Assembly (NCBI GenBank): GCA_028716265.1
Contig: JAQUQD010000029.1
Coordinates: 1 to 36,238, forward strand
From: Bacteroidales bacterium
Lineage (GTDB): Bacteria; Bacteroidota; Bacteroidia; Bacteroidales; JAGONC01
Length of the DNA stretch: 36,238 nucleotides
Direction: 5' to 3'
The stretch's first letter is position 1, and each line of letters begins with the position of its first letter. Below, piece by piece: positions 11,526 through 36,238 of this stretch. The notes beneath the pieces are model-generated. The model saw only the letters and a program-made list of their open reading frames with translations. It did no database searches and was not told the DNA's origin. The translations under genes and the position numbers were made by a program.

Positions 11526-12056
11526 ATGAATCGACTGGCATATTCAGGACTGCTAATGGTGCTTGTCCTGCTGGTTTCTTCCTGCTCACAGAAGAACAAA
11601 CTCGAAAAACAGATCAAGGACCTCGAGGCAGAAATTTTTTCTGCGACCGGTCAGACCATCAACGCTGATATGACGGTCCAGCTGGTGGATGCCTATGTTA
11701 AGTACGCAGATGCGTATCCCGGGGAGAAAAAGTCAGCGGAATTCCTTTTCAACGCTGGCAATGTGGCCATGAACCTGTTGGACCCCAGGAAAGCCATCTC
11801 CATTTTCGACCGCATCCTGCAGAACTATCCGGATAACGAACGTATCCCCCACTGCTTGTTCCTGAAAGCGTTTATCTACGAAAACCAGCTGAACCAGCTG
11901 GGACAGGCAGAGATGCTTTACAAGGAATTTCTGGAGAAATATCCCGGGCACGAATTTGCCGATGATGCGGAGCTTTCGCTGAAAAACCTTGGAAAATCTC
12001 CCGAAGAGCTACTGGAACAGTTCCAGAAAATGGCAGGTGCCGACAGCATCCAATAA
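11526..12056 (+). CDS. tetratricopeptide-repeat lipoprotein
   Basis: 176 aa; signal peptide with lipobox VSSCSQ; TPR-like helices (AISIFDRILQNYPDNERIP, AEMLYKEFLEKYPGHEFADDAE). Confidence 0.75.
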   Translation: MNRLAYSGLLMVLVLLVSSCSQKNKLEKQIKDLEAEIFSATGQTINADMTVQLVDAYVKYADAYPGEKKSAEFLFNAGNVAMNLLDPRKAISIFDRILQNYPDNERIPHCLFLKAFIYENQLNQLGQAEMLYKEFLEKYPGHEFADDAELSLKNLGKSPEELLEQFQKMAGADSIQ

Positions 12057-12866
12057 TCAGTTGAACTCTTCCTCCAAAAAATTTTTTAGGTTTGCCGGTG
12101 TGATCCTGGTAAAAATCTCCCCTTTTTTGCTATAGGCGATCTCCCCTGTTTGTTCTGAAACGATGATCGCCACAGCGTCCGAAATTTCAGTGATGCCTGC
12201 TGCAGCACGGTGACGTAGACCATAATCGGCCGGGAAATCCCTGTTCTTGGTAATGGGCAGCACGCACCGGGCAGCTTTTATCCGGTTCTTCAGGATAATG
12301 ATAGCGCCGTCATGCAGGGGATTGTTCTTGTAAAAGATGTTCTGGATCATAGGCTCTGAGATCAGTGCGTCGAGCATGACACCTGTGTCGGAAAAAGATT
12401 GCAGCTCATTCAATTTTGCGCAGACAATCAGTGCACCGGTACGGGTATTCCCCATTTCCATACAGGCTTTGGTGATTTTGTCAACGTCCAGGTTATCCTT
12501 CCTGTCGCCGTGAAGCATCCATGTAAACAGCCGCCTGCGATCTTTCAGCAGACGGGGAGTCCCGACGATCAACAGGAAGCGCCTTATCTCCGGCTGGAAG
12601 ACGACGATGAGAGCAATGAATCCGACACTGATGAAAGCACCCAGGATCTCCCCCAGCAGGTCCATATCCAGTGCGGTAACCACCTTCCAGACCAGGTAAA
12701 TGGAAAGAAGTCCAAAAAAAATGTTGATGGCTGCAGTCCCTTTGACCATCCGGTAAAAAGCAAACAACAGGATGGCAACCAGAAGGATATCGATAACATC
12801 CACAAGCCGCACCTGGAAAAAACCACTGAGTACTATGCTGGGAACAACTTCCATAACCGGCTGCAA
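12057..12866 (-). CDS. cdaA: diadenylate cyclase CdaA (c-di-AMP synthase)
   Basis: 269 aa; three N-terminal TM helices; DGAIII and RHRAAAGITE DAC motifs. Confidence 0.93.
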   Translation of the reverse strand: MQPVMEVVPSIVLSGFFQVRLVDVIDILLVAILLFAFYRMVKGTAAINIFFGLLSIYLVWKVVTALDMDLLGEILGAFISVGFIALIVVFQPEIRRFLLIVGTPRLLKDRRRLFTWMLHGDRKDNLDVDKITKACMEMGNTRTGALIVCAKLNELQSFSDTGVMLDALISEPMIQNIFYKNNPLHDGAIIILKNRIKAARCVLPITKNRDFPADYGLRHRAAAGITEISDAVAIIVSEQTGEIAYSKKGEIFTRITPANLKNFLEEEFN

Positions 12867-15473: not shown

Positions 15474-16556
15474 ATGTTCCGGTTTATTGTCAGACGATTA
15501 TGGTACGGATTTCTTGTTCTGCTGGGAGTGATTACGGTAGTGTTCTTGCTTTTCAACGTCCTGCCCGGGGATCCGGCACGAATGGTATTGGGTCAGCGGT
15601 CAGATATTTCGACCGAGGAAGCCATCAGGAAGGACCTGGGACTTGACAAATCCGGAATAATACAGTATTTCAGCTTCCTTAACGACCTTGCGCCCGTTTC
15701 ATTCCATCATACAACAGATCCATCCCATCACTGGTACCTGGACAGCACGCGCTATTCACCTTTCGTTAACATTGCCAATCTTGCCAATGACTGGACCGTG
15801 GTACTGAAAAAGCCGTATCTGAGGCGATCGTATCAGAGTAAAAGAGAGGTCACTGATATTCTTGCGGAGGCTTTTCCGAAAACCCTGCTTCTTGCCGCTG
15901 TGTCCATCAGCTTTACCATGGTGGTGGGGATTGCCATCGGGCTACTGTGCGCAATAAATAAAAACAAGTTGATTGACAGGATCTTCCTGATCTTATCCGT
16001 CCTTGGAATGTCGCTTCCCTCTTTTTTTGCCGCTATCCTGATCGGATGGATTTTTGCTTTTGTCCTGGCGGATTATACAGGCCTGAACATGTTTGGGAGC
16101 ATGTATTCGGTTGATGATTTCGGGCAGGGTGAATATCTTGACCTGAAGAACTTGATTTTGCCTGCTTTTACGCTGGGGATCAGGCCTTTGGCAGTAATCG
16201 TAGAATTGACGAGAAGCTCGGTGCTGGAAGTGCTTTCCCAGGATTATATCCGGACTGCCCGGGCCAAGGGTTTACCGGGAAGCAGGATCCTCTGGCACCA
16301 TGCACTGCGGAATGCGATGAATCCTGTTGCCAGCGCTGTCACCGGTTGGTTTGCCTCGCTCTTGGCTGGAGCTGTCTTCGTTGAATATGTATTTGACTGG
16401 AAAGGGATCGGTGTGGTGATCGTGGATTCGCTGGAGAAGTATGATTTCCCTGTGATGATGGGCGCCGTCCTGCTGATTTCAGTCATGTTGGTATTTATTA
16501 ATATTTTTGCAGATATTATATATGGGTATCTGGATCCCAGGATCAGGTACGAATAA
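15474..16556 (+). CDS. ABC transporter permease, OppB/DppB-like
   Basis: 360 aa; FVLLGVITVVFLLFNVLPGDPARMVLGQR; EAA-like loop QDYIRTARAKGLPGSRILWHHALRNAMNPV. Confidence 0.9.
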   Translation: MFRFIVRRLWYGFLVLLGVITVVFLLFNVLPGDPARMVLGQRSDISTEEAIRKDLGLDKSGIIQYFSFLNDLAPVSFHHTTDPSHHWYLDSTRYSPFVNIANLANDWTVVLKKPYLRRSYQSKREVTDILAEAFPKTLLLAAVSISFTMVVGIAIGLLCAINKNKLIDRIFLILSVLGMSLPSFFAAILIGWIFAFVLADYTGLNMFGSMYSVDDFGQGEYLDLKNLILPAFTLGIRPLAVIVELTRSSVLEVLSQDYIRTARAKGLPGSRILWHHALRNAMNPVASAVTGWFASLLAGAVFVEYVFDWKGIGVVIVDSLEKYDFPVMMGAVLLISVMLVFINIFADIIYGYLDPRIRYE

Positions 16557-29237: not shown

Positions 29238-30300
29238 ATGCTTGTCAAAACTTTTGGGAGTGCCCTTCATGGCATCCATGCCATCACCATTACCATTGAG
29301 GTCAATATTGATCAGGGCGTCAACTTTTTTATGGTGGGATTGCCCGACAGTGCCGTCAAGGAGAGCCATCAGCGGATCGAGGCAGCCCTGAAAAACATCG
29401 GGCATAAGATACCGGGGAAGAAGATCGTGATCAACATGGCACCCGCGGATATCCGAAAAGAGGGTTCCTCCTATGACCTGACCATCGCGATCGGTATCCT
29501 GGCCGCCTCCGAGCAGATCAATCCTTCCAGGGTGGGGGATTTTATCATCATGGGCGAGCTTTCGCTGGATGGCAGCCTGCAGCCCATCAAGGGGGCACTG
29601 CCCATCGCCATTGAGGTTAGAAAGAAAGGATTCAAAGGCCTGATCATTCCCAGAATCAACGCCAGGGAGGCAGCCATTGTAAGCGATATTGATGTGTATG
29701 GCGTTGAGAACATCAGGGAGGTTATTGAGTTTTTCAATCAGCAGACCGAGCTGATACCCGTCAAGGTCAACACCAGGGCAGAATTTTATCAGAACCTCAA
29801 TGATTATGAATTCGACTTCTCGGACGTCAAAGGGCAGGAAAACATCAAGCGTGCGCTGGAGATCGCGGCTGCCGGCGGACACAACATCATTCTGATCGGT
29901 CCGCCCGGATCCGGCAAAACGATGCTGGCCAAAAGGCTGCCATCCATCCTACCGCCGCTGAGCCTCAATGAAGCTCTGGAGACCACCAAGATCCATTCGG
30001 TAGCCGGAAAGCTCAGTAATCATTCATCGCTGATCACCACCCGTCCTTACCGTGCGCCCCATCACTCCATTAGCGACGCAGGTTTGGTTGGTGGGGGGTC
30101 CTATCCACAGCCGGGGGAGATTTCACTGGCTCATAACGGTGTTTTGTTTCTGGACGAGCTGCCGGAATTCAAACGATCGGCCCTGGAGGTAATGCGCCAG
30201 CCCATGGAAGAAAGGATCGTCACCATCTCCCGCGCCCGGTTTTCCGTCGAATACCCGGCAAGTTTCCAGCTTGTAGCGGCCATGAATCCCTGTTCATGCG
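29238..30300 (+). pseudogene. comM: ComM/YifB family Mg-chelatase-like ATPase, truncated by island insertion
   Basis: [50 protein letters not shown]; homology stops at AAMNPCSC, where the family continues with G; the ORF then runs into [12 protein letters not shown]. Confidence 0.92.
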
Positions 30301-31761
30301 TTGACCATCTGTGGCACTTCTATAGGATGGTGGCATAAGGTATTTCAGGTTGATTGTTATATCTTCTGTCTGGACGATTATTGAATCGGTTACCGATTCA
30401 ATAATCGTCCTCTTTTCGTCTCGACTTAGTCGAGACCATTGACTGTATATGTTCTCTGCTTCTTTGAACATATACTTTCCGCTTTCTCCGTTTTGTTTGA
30501 GAGCTAATATTTCACCTTCAATCAAAGGTATCTGAGATTGAATTTGGTTTAGCTGTTCAAACAATGGGTTGAATTGGTGACCAAAACCTTCGGTTGGAAT
30601 TTCCTTCTTTTGGTGTAGGTCAAGCAGATTATCGAGCTTGGCTTGAATCTTTTCAGTTTCTTTTCGTAAAGTCCTTAATATATCTTCTTTATTCTTGATC
30701 AGAGTTTCATTAGCTTCAATGTACAATTGAATATTTTCATCAGTGATAATGTAATCAGTTAATTGCTGGTGAAATATTTCTTCCAAATCATCTTGGGGTA
30801 TTTTGTTTTTGCAATTCTGACAGACATATTTGAGATTGTTAGATGGTAAGTACATTTTGGAACCACAGCCACAGATAACAAAGCCAGTGAAAAGATGAGT
30901 TTTCTTATTTAGTGGTTGTTTCCGGCTCTTAGATTGATCAAGTAAGATAGCGTTGACTGTTTCCCATTTTTCCTCAGAGATTATTGGTGGAACTTCATTG
31001 AACACCCATTCTTCTTTAGCTTTCATCTTCCAGTGTTTCTTGTCACCGGTACTTTCAGTATAGTTAACTCGTCTTAAGCCCTTAGCGATTGGGTCTTCCA
31101 GTAATCTTTTAACGGTAGTATCTGAGAATCTCTCATTGTTTCTTGTTCGATAACCACTTTCATTTAAAATATTAGCGACTGTCTTTTTCCTTTTATGAGT
31201 AAGGAATAGGTCATACATTAAATTACGGATTGATGCTTCTTGATCATTTATGATCAGCTTTTTATCTTTCCAGTTATATCCATAAGGAGCTTGACCACCT
31301 AAAGATTTACCTAACTTAGCTCTGATTGGAACCGAAGCGGAAACTCTTTCAGCTATTTCTTCTCTTTCCCATTGTGCCATTGCTGAAATCAAAGTGTAGA
31401 AGAATCTTCCGGCAGGGGTTGAGGTATCAATACTTTCTTGCAAAGAAATCAGGTCAGCATTGTAGTCTCTGAAAATGTCGGCTATCTGCAGAAGTTCTCT
31501 GGTATTCCTGGCTAATCGAGCAATTTTAGAGAAGATCAGGCCGGTGATTTTGCCTGATTTAATATCTTTAATCATTCTTTCAGCTTCGGGATGATGGAGA
31601 ACTGTTTTACCACTGACTGCTTCCAGATGATATATTTCGACAACTTCCCAATTCTTTACTTCGGCATACATCCTAGCTCTAGCTTCATGATGTTCAGGAC
31701 TTTCACCTTTAGCCTGATCTTCAGTTGAGACTCTAATCCAAATTCCAACTTGCTTTTTCAT
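30220..31761 (-). CDS. large serine recombinase (resolvase + recombinase + zinc-ribbon domains)
   Basis: Start [80 protein letters not shown] zinc ribbon; coiled-coil-like stretch; last about 25 codons lie in antisense comM. Confidence 0.93.
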
Positions 31762-31962
31762 AGCTTTATATTTATCGCTATAAAAATACAAAAAGCAACG
31801 AAACAATGTTGCGTTGATAAATATTAAAAAGTTACTTTAAAAGTAGATAAAGTCAAAAATTTCTCTGTATAGAACATTTACCTGATCTCTATATCATTAG
31901 AATAACTTCTATCTTTAGCTTGATTTTTACTTTTATTTTATTTTGGGAATCTTAATAAAAAG

Positions 31963-31988
31963 AGTATTTTTGTATACTATAATTATCA
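31963..31988 (+). promoter_or_regulatory. candidate controller-protein operator/promoter of the MTase gene
   Basis: agtatttttgtatactataattatca; shares atactataatta with the sequence upstream of the XRE gene. Confidence 0.45.
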
Positions 31989-32002
31989 TTTATTTTTAGA
32001 TA

Positions 32003-33109
32003 ATGTCCTATACAGCAAATAGAGAGAAGGAATTCTTGAAAATAATTAAGGGTTTCAAGAAGGATGACATTTTTTCAACTGATAACTCATTGGTCATAAA
32101 AGGAGATTCTTTAGAAGTTTTGAAATCTATTCCAGATAATTCAATCTCACTTATTTTAACTGATCCTCCGTACCACAGCACAAAAAAGGATAATATCACG
32201 AATGATAAAGCATTTAAAACTGATCAAGAGTTTATCGAATGGATTGCGAATTATACCCATGAATGGAAAAGGATTTTAAGACAGAATGGTTCACTTTTTC
32301 TTTTTTGTTCATCAGCAATGTCCGCTAAATTAGAAACACTGCTTTCAGTAAATTTTAATGTGCTATCGCATATTGTTTGGACAAAACCAAATGATCCAGG
32401 ATTTGATGGATGGAAAGGGAAAATGAAAAAAGAAGCATTAAGACAATGGTATCCGCATTCAGAAAGAATTCTTTTTGCTGAACCAGCTATCAATAGCAAT
32501 CTTAAAAGATCATGCTTTGGACATTTTTTAAAAGAAAAAAGAATTCTTTGCGGTATGTCAAGTAACCAAGTGGCTGAAATCATTGGGGCTTATGGTAAGG
32601 TAAATCATGGAGGATCAGTTTCAAATTGGGAAGCTGGGAGAAATATTCCAAGCAAAGAACAATATTCGAAAATATGTCAAGCGTTTATTAATTCGGGAAA
32701 AATAGATAATATGCCGGATTATGAAGATGTTATTAGGAAATTTGAAGTATCGTCTGAGATCGAATTTACTGATGTTTGGAATTTTAATTCTGTAAAACCC
32801 TATAAAGGGAAACACCCAGCTGAAAAGCCTATTGATTTATTGGAACATTGTATAAGTGCAACCACTTTTGAAAGGGATATAGTTCTAGATTGTTTTGCTG
32901 GCTCTGGAAGTACTGCGATTGCGTCATTGAAGTTAGGAAGACATTCAATTTCGATTGAACTTGAAGACGAATGGGTGGAAAAAATTAAAACTAGAATTTT
33001 AAATATGAGTCAAACCCCAGAAAGTCATAATTATCCTAGTATTCAAAAGAACATAATGAAAATTGTGCAAAAATCTACTTTGTTGTATCAAAAATCATTA
33101 TTTGACTAA
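32003..33109 (+). CDS. type II DNA methyltransferase, beta-class (probable N6-adenine or N4-cytosine), with internal HTH-like segment
   Basis: Motif IV TDPPYHSTK near the N-terminus, AEKP, motif I DCFAGSGSTAIASLKLGR near the C-terminus; internal GMSSNQVAEIIGAYGKVNHGGSVSNWEAGRNIPSKEQYSKICQAF. Confidence 0.9.
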   Translation: MSYTANREKEFLKIIKGFKKDDIFSTDNSLVIKGDSLEVLKSIPDNSISLILTDPPYHSTKKDNITNDKAFKTDQEFIEWIANYTHEWKRILRQNGSLFLFCSSAMSAKLETLLSVNFNVLSHIVWTKPNDPGFDGWKGKMKKEALRQWYPHSERILFAEPAINSNLKRSCFGHFLKEKRILCGMSSNQVAEIIGAYGKVNHGGSVSNWEAGRNIPSKEQYSKICQAFINSGKIDNMPDYEDVIRKFEVSSEIEFTDVWNFNSVKPYKGKHPAEKPIDLLEHCISATTFERDIVLDCFAGSGSTAIASLKLGRHSISIELEDEWVEKIKTRILNMSQTPESHNYPSIQKNIMKIVQKSTLLYQKSLFD

Positions 33110-33128
33110 TACAGTGTCAATCAGTTAA

Positions 33129-34091
33129 TTATAATCTATTTCTTGCTAATACCTCTTTCATCCATAAAAGAGTATCGTTGATTCCAGAATCCTTGCAAAC
33201 TACATTACAAAAATGATGTCCCCAACCTAAATTGTACGGCTGATGATTAAATACTCCTGTTCGTAACTCGACAATATGGAATAGGCTGACTTGAGTGACA
33301 GTCAGATCAGGAACATCTCTTCCATCAGCTTGTTCTAAACGATTATAAAAGCCACTTGCTAATATTTTTTCTAGACAAAGAGGACAAGTAGTATGTCCTT
33401 CATCATTAATGACTCTTATTTTCTTAAGCTCTTCCTTGTTTAAAAGTCCTAATTGATTGCAAACTAATTCGATATTTGATTTCCTTATTTCAATATTTCT
33501 TTTAGTCATGCCTTCCTTTAAGGAGATATCAATAGAATCTGGACAACTCCAATATAAATATTCAAGTTGCAATTGACATTTTTTAATAATATCTGAACTT
33601 GCATATTCATAGACTCGAATTCCTGCACCTTTGATTTCAGAAGTAATGAATCCAAGGTTTATTTTCTCATCATCCTTTGACGTAGTAGAAGGAACTCTGG
33701 CAACGTATTCTCCACCAAGCGGAGCAATTCTACTTGATGCAACGTTCAAATTGTACCTTGTAGGATTGTATGCATTCCATTGATACCTTGTTTCATAGAA
33801 TAATAATGAATTTAATCCAAGGACTAAATCCTTCTCTTCCATATAGCTTCTAATCTGGGAGTTTTCGAAGTATTCTTCAGGTTTAATTAAAACAATATAA
33901 TCATTCTCAAAAATTCCCTGATTATCTGGAGCGTAAGCACAGTTATTAAATGAATTAATTGGAATTAAAACGGTACTATTTCTCTTTACCCTATTTTGAT
34001 ATATTACATCATCATCCGCACCACGTGTTTGACCAGTTTTATAGATTTTCCTATCAAGTAATTTGGGTAGTGGAGGTAGTCTATTCGCCAT
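33129..34091 (-). CDS. type II restriction endonuclease, BstXI-like, with putative Cys/His nuclease motif
   Basis: 320 aa, convergent with the MTase; KIYKTGQTRGADDDVIYQNRVKRNSTVLIP, HTTCPLCLEKI, LFHIVELRTGVFNHQPYNLGWGHHFCNVVCKDSGI. BstXI resemblance is from memory. Confidence 0.68.
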   Translation of the reverse strand: MANRLPPLPKLLDRKIYKTGQTRGADDDVIYQNRVKRNSTVLIPINSFNNCAYAPDNQGIFENDYIVLIKPEEYFENSQIRSYMEEKDLVLGLNSLLFYETRYQWNAYNPTRYNLNVASSRIAPLGGEYVARVPSTTSKDDEKINLGFITSEIKGAGIRVYEYASSDIIKKCQLQLEYLYWSCPDSIDISLKEGMTKRNIEIRKSNIELVCNQLGLLNKEELKKIRVINDEGHTTCPLCLEKILASGFYNRLEQADGRDVPDLTVTQVSLFHIVELRTGVFNHQPYNLGWGHHFCNVVCKDSGINDTLLWMKEVLARNRL

Positions 34092-34302
34092 TAAACAACT
34101 GATTTAAACTAACATTTAGGGCGATAGCAAGCCGTTCAATGTTAATCAGGGTTATATTTTTCTCTGCTCTTTCTATCATCCCAATGTAAGTTCGGTGTAA
34201 TCCTGCTTTTTCAGCTAACTCTTCCTGAGAAATACCTTTTTCTTTTCTTATCTCTCTAATCCTATTTCCAAACTTTATGAGTATTTCAGAATTTGATTCC
34301 AT
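34081..34302 (-). CDS. XRE-family HTH controller (C) protein of the R-M system
   Basis: 73 aa; GNRIREIRKEKGISQEELAEKAGLHRTYIGMIERAEKNITLINIERLAIALNVSLNQLF; overlaps the REase start by 11 nt. Confidence 0.9.
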   Translation of the reverse strand: MESNSEILIKFGNRIREIRKEKGISQEELAEKAGLHRTYIGMIERAEKNITLINIERLAIALNVSLNQLFNGE

Positions 34303-34367
34303 TGCTAATTATAGTATGTGTAAAACTAAACAAGGTTATTATTGTGTGCCACATACTAAAGTTAGCA
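34303..34367 (-). promoter_or_regulatory. candidate C-box: 18-bp inverted repeats upstream of the C gene
   Basis: tgctaattatagtatgtg (34303-34320) vs cacatactaaagttagca (34350-34367), 16/18 complementary, abutting the C-protein ATG. Confidence 0.6.
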
Positions 34368-34669
34368 TTTTTACAAAAATGAAATTTTTCTAAAATCTAA
34401 TCTATTTGAAAATATAACTTGATTTAAACTTATTGAAGTGATTTAACAAATTGTGCTTAGTACATGACAAAATTTCGTAATATTTTGAATATCAATAATA
34501 TATGTTAATAACTTGGTGATAACTTTTTAGTATAAAATGATATAAAGCCCTGATATTCAGTACCTTAGATAAAATACCGACAAGTATGAATCCAAGGTAC
34601 ACGAACCCCAGGGCTGAGAGTTAAAATAGCATTTTATTCGAAACATTGACACAAATTTTTGGGGACAAA

Positions 34670-34756
34670 ATGAATTTGGCCCGCATTAAGTTCTTTGGCT
34701 TATTTATCTGTGCTCTTTGCAAGGTTCAACCCGTCTGTTTCGAGAAACTAGCAACC
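34670..34756 (+). pseudogene. IS4 transposase N-terminal fragment
   Basis: MNLARIKFFGLFICALCKVQPVCFEKLAT, then loss of similarity. Confidence 0.7.
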
Positions 34757-34866
34757 GTCTTGCGGTCAATTTCCAGTTTACGACCAATCTCGGATTTAGA
34801 AAATCCCAGTTTCTTCAATTGATGGACCTGGTCAAACATGAACAGTTTCTTTAGGTGATCTCTCAT
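34749..34866 (-). pseudogene. IS21-family IstA transposase N-terminal HTH fragment
   Basis: Minus-strand MRDHLKKLFMFDQVHQLKKLGFSKSEIGRKLEIDRKTVA, then stops. Confidence 0.72.
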
Positions 34867-34945
34867 GGCTCATGGATTGGTGAGCCTTCTTTAACGATTT
34901 TTTCAGAAGGGGGTTCGGGGTGCCCCCTCACGCCCTTCTGAACCC

Positions 34946-35017
34946 AAAACTGTCCATTCTTATTTACCGAAAGTTGACCATTCTTATTTACCGAAAATTG
35001 TCCATTGTTATTTACCG
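34946..35017. repeat. three tandem 24-bp repeats = IS21-family terminal repeats
   Basis: aaaactgtccattcttatttaccg / aaagttgaccattcttatttaccg / aaaattgtccattgttatttaccg. Confidence 0.88.
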
Positions 35018-35023
35018 ATTACA

Positions 35024-35246
35024 TTTGGACCGTATCAATAAACTCCTGGCACTGGTTCTTTTTGCTTTTACCTGGGCTTATCTAGCAGGAATCTTTCTGG
35101 ACTTGCTCATCCCAATCAAAATCAAAAAGCATGGAAGAAGGGCAAAAAGCTTATTCAAATACGGATTAACCTATCTTGCGAGTGTCCTGTTTTCCAACGA
35201 TATAGATAAATTTAAAGATGTTTGTAAATTTTTGTCATGTACTTAG
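35024..35246 (+). pseudogene. IS4 transposase C-terminal fragment
   Basis: HLDRINKLLALVLFAFTWAYLAGIFLDLLIPIKIKKHGRRAKSLFKYGLTYLASVLFSNDIDKFKDVCKFLSCT*; the stop lies in the terminal inverted repeat. Confidence 0.75.
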
Positions 35247-35349
35247 CAAATATCTATAAACAATTACAGTTACTATTTAACCCCGAAACTTGAGTAAGTG
35301 ATATCACTTTCTCCAAGGAGCTGCTCCAATTCCGAAATAAATTTCAAGA

Positions 35350-35387
35350 AAAATAAAAGAGGCTGTCTCGTCTTTTGAGACAGCCTC
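35350..35387 (-). terminator. Rho-independent terminator for the minus-strand 214-aa gene
   Basis: Perfect 11-bp stem gaggctgtctc-gtctttt-gagacagcctc; minus strand followed by ttttattttt. Confidence 0.75.
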
Positions 35388-35442
35388 AATGTTCAAAGAG
35401 TAATAGGATCATGATTCATAGTAATGCACTGATGCAAAGCAT

Positions 35443-36087
35443 CTAGGCTTTCATCCTGCGGAGAAGAAAGGCATAGCCTTCAAGCCACTTATAGCCGAAA
35501 GTGCTCATACCCAGTTTGCGCTTACCATTGTCGCGCTGAGCCGAGAGAAAGCACAAGCTGCCACTCGCATTCGGGAGTAAAGAGGTTTCGTCAGTTGGCA
35601 ATACCACGGCTACATCAAGAGGGATGGCAATTTCTGCCAGTTTCTCTTCGCTCAAGTGTCTCATAGCACCCACCAGTAGGCTTGGATGAGCCTTTTTAGC
35701 CACTTTAAAGCCCTTTGACTTGAAGTAGTCGTAAATATCCGAGCTGCCCGGAACAACTTGGTCTTTGCCTTCCCAGTAAAGCACTAATTCTTCTTCGGCA
35801 GTACTCGTAATCGGAGCGAAAATCGCCTTACGGCAAGTTTCGTTGTTTTCAAGATGTTCGAAGTATCTATTGTTGAATCTGCCGATTTTGACTATTTCTT
35901 CAAACGAAGAAAACTGTTTTGGCGCAATTCTCACCGCCAGCCTTCCGTACTTTTTGAGAAGCAGAAATTCGTCTGCCATCCTTAAGCTGGTTTCAGTAAT
36001 TTCATTGATATTTGAATCCGGTAAATCAATACCGTGAGTGTTAAAGACCTTCTTAAAGTCTTCAGCAAAAATGTTAATTTCATACAT
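35443..36087 (-). CDS. hypothetical protein
   Basis: 214-aa ORF (MYEINIFAEDFKKVFNTHGIDLPDSNINEITETSLRMADEFLLL...) followed by a strong terminator; no family recognised. Confidence 0.65.
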   Translation of the reverse strand: MYEINIFAEDFKKVFNTHGIDLPDSNINEITETSLRMADEFLLLKKYGRLAVRIAPKQFSSFEEIVKIGRFNNRYFEHLENNETCRKAIFAPITSTAEEELVLYWEGKDQVVPGSSDIYDYFKSKGFKVAKKAHPSLLVGAMRHLSEEKLAEIAIPLDVAVVLPTDETSLLPNASGSLCFLSAQRDNGKRKLGMSTFGYKWLEGYAFLLRRMKA

Positions 36088-36169
36088 GTTTTTAGGTTTT
36101 AGTTAATACTTAAGGTTCTTCGTAAAGATGCGTACCTGATATATATTTGTTGAGTAAATCAGATGACCA

Positions 36170-36238
36170 ATGAGTACAAGTTTGTTGCATCATGCATTTG
36201 GGCTGACCGACCAGGAGTACCTTAAGACAGAATATAAA
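36170..36238 (+). CDS. N-terminus of a probable ISL3-type transposase, truncated by the window end
   Basis: ATG-initiated open frame to the last base: MSTSLLHHAFGLTDQEYLKTEYK; possible IS terminus ggttcttcgtaaagatgcgtacc at about 36114. Confidence 0.5.
   Translation, partial: MSTSLLHHAFGLTDQEYLKTEYK

Follow-up and report, generated by a model that had tools for sequence, protein, structure and literature searches.

A comM-targeting large serine recombinase island that carries a BstXI-type restriction-modification system and whose attachment site appears to lie inside its own recombinase gene

The window analysed here is a whole contig (C29; 36,238 nt) of a Bacteroidales bacterium from a metagenome-like draft genome (G000; 3.09 Mb in 166 contigs), and it stops inside an island that interrupts comM/yifB. 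That comM is broken by a large serine recombinase (LSR) island carrying a restriction-modification (R-M) set, as noted in an initial annotation made from the sequence of the window, is confirmed. In what is very probably the best explanation of the whole, the island targets comM by means of an attachment site (attP) located inside a single gene for the LSR and a helix-turn-helix (HTH) domain; this gene would be split on integration, and the far end of the island would be represented by the end of a second contig, C1. The evidence comes from the comM junction, from the ends of related islands, from the reading frame that crosses the rebuilt attP, and from the position of the right end in this genome.

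The comM junction and the attachment sites

In the window the comM reading frame spans 29238-30338, its last stretch being island sequence. The product matches TIGR00368 (YifB family) over residues 8-355 (E=1.5e-141, profile scan), and two genus-mates (G001 and G002) have an intact comM of 512 aa that is 99% identical across 354 shared residues. Alignment with intact genus-mate comM shows that the last host bases are the TG of the MNP-C codon; from there the junction reads TG / TTCAT / GCGTTGACC, and the 'SC' in MNPCSC are element-derived residues. The initial annotation had put the loss of the comM frame where the family continues with G (MNPCPCGY); the break is indeed in this motif, but its exact edge has been moved to the TG at 30291-30292. 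The rest of its description of this region was borne out: the DNA past the break is AT-rich (35% G+C in the island versus 48% in the host part), and a site-specific serine-recombinase island is inserted in comM at codons of a conserved motif, with the LSR on the minus strand directly at the junction. This protein contains Resolvase (E=1.7e-31) and Recombinase (E=7.8e-19) domains, and a zinc ribbon is detected below its cut-off.

A scan of a genome collection for relatives of the LSR yielded 80 loci in at least 15 phyla, mostly from metagenome-assembled genomes. The LSR end meets comM at codon ~354 in 54 of these 80 relatives. Among the 54, 52 adjoin the 5' half of comM (at the LSR C-terminal end, with comM opposed), and two are flipped and adjoin the 3' half. 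Complete islands, which range from 25 to 55 kb, have the TG common to both ends: the left end has the form comM...ATGAAYCCN-TG-N5-GCGTTGCC and the right end GGCAACGC-N5-TG-YCCNTGYGG. The attP type in relatives is GGCAACGC-N5-CA-N5-GCGTTGCC, with imperfect inverted arms around the core. The element half of the left attachment site in the window, read on the LSR strand, is GGTCAACGC-ATGAA, and its counterpart in relatives is GGCAACGC-N5. The LSR side of the flipped islands carries TG in place of CA; this is what would be expected if the core dinucleotide sets orientation, which is an established rule for serine integrases.

One reading frame across attP

In the complete islands examined, the right core is immediately followed by the start of an HTH protein. 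We joined the two element ends of each island in silico at the core, giving attP, and followed the LSR frame across the joint, using joints shifted by 1 or 2 bases as controls. The LSR frame enters the HTH through the rebuilt attP in all of the first 13 islands and, once the window with C1, G411 and the flipped islands G373 and G232 are added, in 16 of 17; in these 16 the open reading frame (ORF) continues for 83-172 codons beyond the core, into the HTH. With shifted joints the frame is open in 0 of 17 islands, for a shift of 1 base and of 2 bases alike. The window LSR and the C1 HTH form a single frame of 640 aa, in which the core falls at residue 505.

The same arrangement is found in eight loci where LSR, att-like joint and HTH lie side by side with no adjoining comM, that is, in unintegrated copies. 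Seven are in frame (L027, L041, L045, L049, L056, L077 and L099), and six scan as Resolvase, Recombinase and HTH_3 within one ORF of 589-693 aa. In the tree these copies stand beside comM-inserted ones, often of other phyla. In the linker between core and HTH, changes fall mostly on the third position of the codon (e.g. 13/10/32 for positions 1/2/3 in a stretch of 45 codons), and the frame, whose register relative to the att palindrome varies by clade, is open regardless of that register.

With attP inside one ORF, integration splits the gene. After integration the LSR frame closes within antisense comM, which adds a short tail (~24 residues in the window), and the Resolvase and Recombinase domains stay on the LSR side; because these catalytic domains remain intact, the split amounts to trimming and not to suicide.

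Taken together, a defence-carrying integrative island would enter comM when its LSR recombines attP with an attB made up of the conserved MNPCPCG codons, the crossover taking place at TG/CA. This attP would lie inside a single gene encoding the LSR and a C-terminal Cro/C1-type HTH domain, and an LSR-HTH fusion protein would be made in the circular form. Integration would cut this gene, so that the LSR keeps its recombinase domains and gains an antisense-comM tail, the HTH part being left at the far island end. In this genome the far end, on C1, would meet at the CA core a sequence that resembles the comM site but belongs to another gene, and a second LSR-mediated event would be the likeliest cause of the deletion of the comM 3' third. 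The loss of the HTH after integration could act as a switch, for example by silencing further recombination or by changing cargo expression. As Cro/C1-type HTH domains are usually regulators, the likeliest role of the HTH would be autoregulation, or a control of direction, that stops once the element has integrated. More tentatively, and with the odds somewhat against it, a widespread bacterial LSR family may use its own integration as a one-way switch, in which exchanging the HTH for a host-supplied tail changes recombinase activity or regulation and perhaps the timing of cargo expression.

The right end and the missing part of comM

The initial annotation had expected the comM 3' half to appear downstream or elsewhere; it is not in the genome, and the right end abuts a different gene. 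The C-terminal domain of comM, encoded by its 3' third, is absent from all 166 contigs of this assembly, and the last third of comM is thus lost or unassembled here; in related islands the 3' half is present at the far end. A query with the HTH that marks the right end in relatives matched this genome strongly at one place, the end of C1 (111922-112305, 65% identity). The C1 HTH begins at GGACAGGGATTCATTGCC, a sequence similar to the comM attB and joined at the CA core, and the gene at this junction is truncated, is not comM, and has BNR-like repeats (its type was judged by eye). The genome contains a single LSR and a single HTH of this family. On one contig of G001, ~8 kb separates the C1-end sequence from the comM/C29 end, and their orientation matches.

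The simplest reading would be that one island lies between C1 and C29, and that the last third of comM was lost with some neighbouring DNA; the two contigs are not physically joined, and a single island is our inference. The 3' third was perhaps lost when the LSR recombined the right end with a site similar to that in comM. In G002, a comM 3' fragment is found 9 kb downstream of the intact comM, beside an HTH remnant whose DNA is 91% identical to that of C1; the genus has therefore met this island type before. Contig C8 of G002 (L172) contains, in addition to the intact comM, two downstream comM fragments at 11878-12422 and 15536-15892.

Alternative explanations

Several observations weigh against a split gene. 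The flipped island G232 is out of frame, the sole exception of the 17, and the unintegrated copy L067 is frameshifted. The 16 islands in frame share ancestry and are thus not independent events, and the attP ORF of this genome is an in silico joint of ends located on the separate contigs C29 and C1. Moreover, a conserved TTG in the right att arm is a possible separate start for the HTH in several islands and in the Bacteroidota-type register. It could accordingly be that this is an ordinary comM-targeting LSR island, that the HTH is a separate gene, and that the open frame at attP is a by-product of close packing at the joint. We consider this unlikely, given the contrast between the true joint and both shifted frames; in addition, the TTG is out of frame in islands of the G086/G087/G082 type, where the frame is still open, and most islands have no ATG between the core and the HTH. 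It is less likely again that the HTH end on C1 is part of a second island, inserted in a different gene, the right end of the window island and the comM 3' half being unassembled. The gene at the C1 junction is not comM and the contigs are unjoined, as this would predict, yet the genome has one LSR and one HTH of the family, G001 has the C1 and C29 ends on either side of one locus and correctly oriented, and the frame fits.

Two further explanations concern the junction itself, and both are highly improbable. An assembly chimera at 30293 might be suspected in a metagenome-like draft of 166 contigs in which the comM 3' half is missing; however, an identical junction, with the same codon and att arms, recurs in dozens of independent assemblies, and it is also present in the named isolates Niastella populi and Sphingobium cyanobacteriorum. 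A Tn7-like insertion of the AbaR type would share its target gene with the insertions known from Acinetobacter (PMC11472951), but a serine recombinase is located at the end of the island, an LSR-type att core is common to related islands, and no tns/tni-type gene is found among the island ORFs visible in the window. We therefore retain the explanation by a comM-targeting LSR island with attP inside the LSR-HTH gene.

comM in genomes with related islands

Within the Bacteroidia, an LSR relative occurs in 11 of 394 other genomes, and the attB pattern ATGAAYCCNTGYCCNTGYGG is found in 330 of 395 genomes. Broken and intact comM occur in the same genome in G064, G068, G073, G089, G498, G508 and others, and the MNPCPCG motif is changed in many of the intact copies. 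The second intact comM lies a few kb before the right end in G068, G498 and G508, and next to the LSR in G064. At these four loci (L143, L152, L220 and L221; G068, G064, G498 and G508), the attB motif of the second comM reads MNSC, RNPC or NPCLC in several cases, and is not consistently unlike that of the interrupted copy. A recoded, integration-proof comM was dropped as a general rule: the interrupted copies of G068 and G089 share the altered motif, and G524 and G489 keep the ordinary one.

Several comM 3' halves are present per contig in G071 (L167), G083 (L170), G093 (L171) and G082 (L155 and L157). These tandem halves look like successive or rearranged islands, because the ones checked follow an island right end; a comM-restoring element in these four genomes was rejected, as no restoring frame is present at the left end. 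We likewise abandoned the idea that LSR copies outside comM form their own clade, since the tree scatters them among comM-inserted LSRs. L027, L045, L049, L056 and L099 are from Patescibacteria-type genomes, in which an intact attP lies next to the LSR although comM is intact; their LSRs mostly group with comM-inserted LSRs of other phyla.

Island genes and defence cargo

The genes visible in the window are listed with the attachment site features in Table 1. The island carries a BstXI-type II R-M system with an endonuclease and its cognate methylase; the type II module of the initial annotation is thereby matched by a RE_BstXI endonuclease, an N6/N4 methylase and a control protein. Residues 176-228 of the BstXI-type methylase (window 32528-32686) are an inserted HTH_3 domain. 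By eye, window 34680-35050 resembles a remnant of the N-terminus of an IS21-type transposase, with short repeats around 34950-35020.

Table 1. Features of the comM junction and of the island genes in the window
Feature	Position	Strand	Details
comM/yifB 5' part, host side	29238..30292	+	codons 1-351 plus TG of codon 352
LSR frame running on into antisense comM, host-supplied tail	30220..30292	-	~24 residues and stop
Left attachment site	30270..30306	.	comM half ATGAATCCC, core TG, element half TTCAT-GCGTTGACC
Crossover core TG (CA on LSR strand), Cys codon of MNPC	30291..30292	+	common to both ends of related islands
LSR, element-encoded part	30293..31761	-	~490 aa from likely ATG; RVSTEDQ motif near start
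Type II DNA methyltransferase, N6/N4 class, with inserted HTH	32003..33109	+	methylase E=3e-40; PADLOC 4.1e-148
BstXI-family restriction endonuclease	33129..34091	-	RE_BstXI PF09552 E=1.4e-87, full length
R-M control protein, Cro/C1-type HTH, overlaps endonuclease gene	34081..34302	-	PADLOC E=6.7e-24
Island protein without family match	35443..36087	-	profile scans

An R-M set beside an LSR of this family is typical. We compared up to four ORFs nearest the LSR in each related island (132 proteins) with 130 host-flank proteins, using PADLOC at E<=1e-10, and found 301 family matches among the island ORFs versus 14 among the host-flank ORFs; these are counts of families, and because the R-M models are redundant their ratio exaggerates how far the two sets of proteins differ; the direction is clear. 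Pfam matches in related islands include Eco57I, type I S, ResIII, AlwI, EcoRII and several methylases. Relatives were also sought among plasmids and phages; none close was found in PLSDB or IMG/VR, phages giving a match of only 28.5%. As the searches were empty or remote, a phage or plasmid origin was dropped; most of this island lies outside the window.

Relation to known recombination systems

This island is a member of a known pattern of comM-targeting LSRs. What appears to be new is that an integrase family would carry its insertion site inside its own gene, so that the integrase is severed from a DNA-binding domain at each insertion; open-licence papers, when searched for an LSR whose gene contains attP, gave nothing relevant. 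For serine integrases, which are important as tools for writing genomes, the control of direction is a central question. A family in which the product of recombination changes the recombinase would have a natural control of direction or timing. The combination of comM as a target with defence cargo also bears on the reasons for which mobile elements inactivate genes for transformation.

According to excerpts of a survey of LSRs, 12.4% of predicted site-specific LSRs target the magnesium chelatase/ATP-dependent protease gene; DNA competence genes are enriched among the targets, and target sites are not enriched in defence genes or around them (Durrant et al. 2022, PMC10083194). Enzyme class and target gene are the same as here, and the same excerpts make no mention of an attP inside an LSR-HTH frame; the islands described here are defence-rich inside. 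The serine recombinase sr1WO of phage WO likewise integrates into a magnesium chelatase gene and splits it (PMC9203015); phage WO is a Wolbachia prophage, whereas the elements here are without close phage relatives. The initial annotation had proposed that a different recombination mechanism converged on comM: an LSR does act at comM, but its novelty falls away because LSR targeting of this gene is already published (PMC10083194, PMC9203015). Its distinction from the Tn7-like AbaR islands is upheld by the LSR att ends and by the lack of a tns-type gene among the visible ORFs. In A. baumannii, comM is interrupted by AbaR islands and defence-bearing elements, and transformation is reduced (PMC11472951); comM is interrupted in both cases, by Tn7-like transposition there and by LSR recombination here. 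The initial annotation also suggested that a broken comM together with an imported R-M module would restrict foreign DNA in two ways; that the loss of ComM lowers transformation is taken from the same published work (PMC11472951).

The closest parallels to a split gene are found in two other systems. In mycobacteriophages with integration-dependent immunity, attP is located in the repressor gene, integration removes its 3' end, and the host can supply the stop (PMC9262239). Similarly, attP here would lie in a gene for a DNA-binding regulator that loses its 3' end and receives a host-supplied stop; in the mycobacteriophages a tyrosine integrase cuts the repressor gene, while here the integrase gene itself would be cut and the HTH part lost. 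The suicidal integrases of SSV1, pTN3 and pT26-2 also have attP in the integrase gene, which is split on integration, and are described as exclusively archaeal (PMC8371274). The location of attP in the integrase frame is shared with the LSRs described here (16 of 17 joined islands and seven of eight unintegrated copies). Unlike the archaeal enzymes, which are tyrosine recombinases, these are serine recombinases from mostly bacterial genomes, and they keep complete catalytic domains and lose only a DNA-binding domain. If our interpretation is correct, a self-splitting LSR would be the serine-recombinase, bacterial counterpart of the archaeal self-splitting integrases, and would contradict the statement that self-disrupting recombinases occur only in archaea (PMC8371274).

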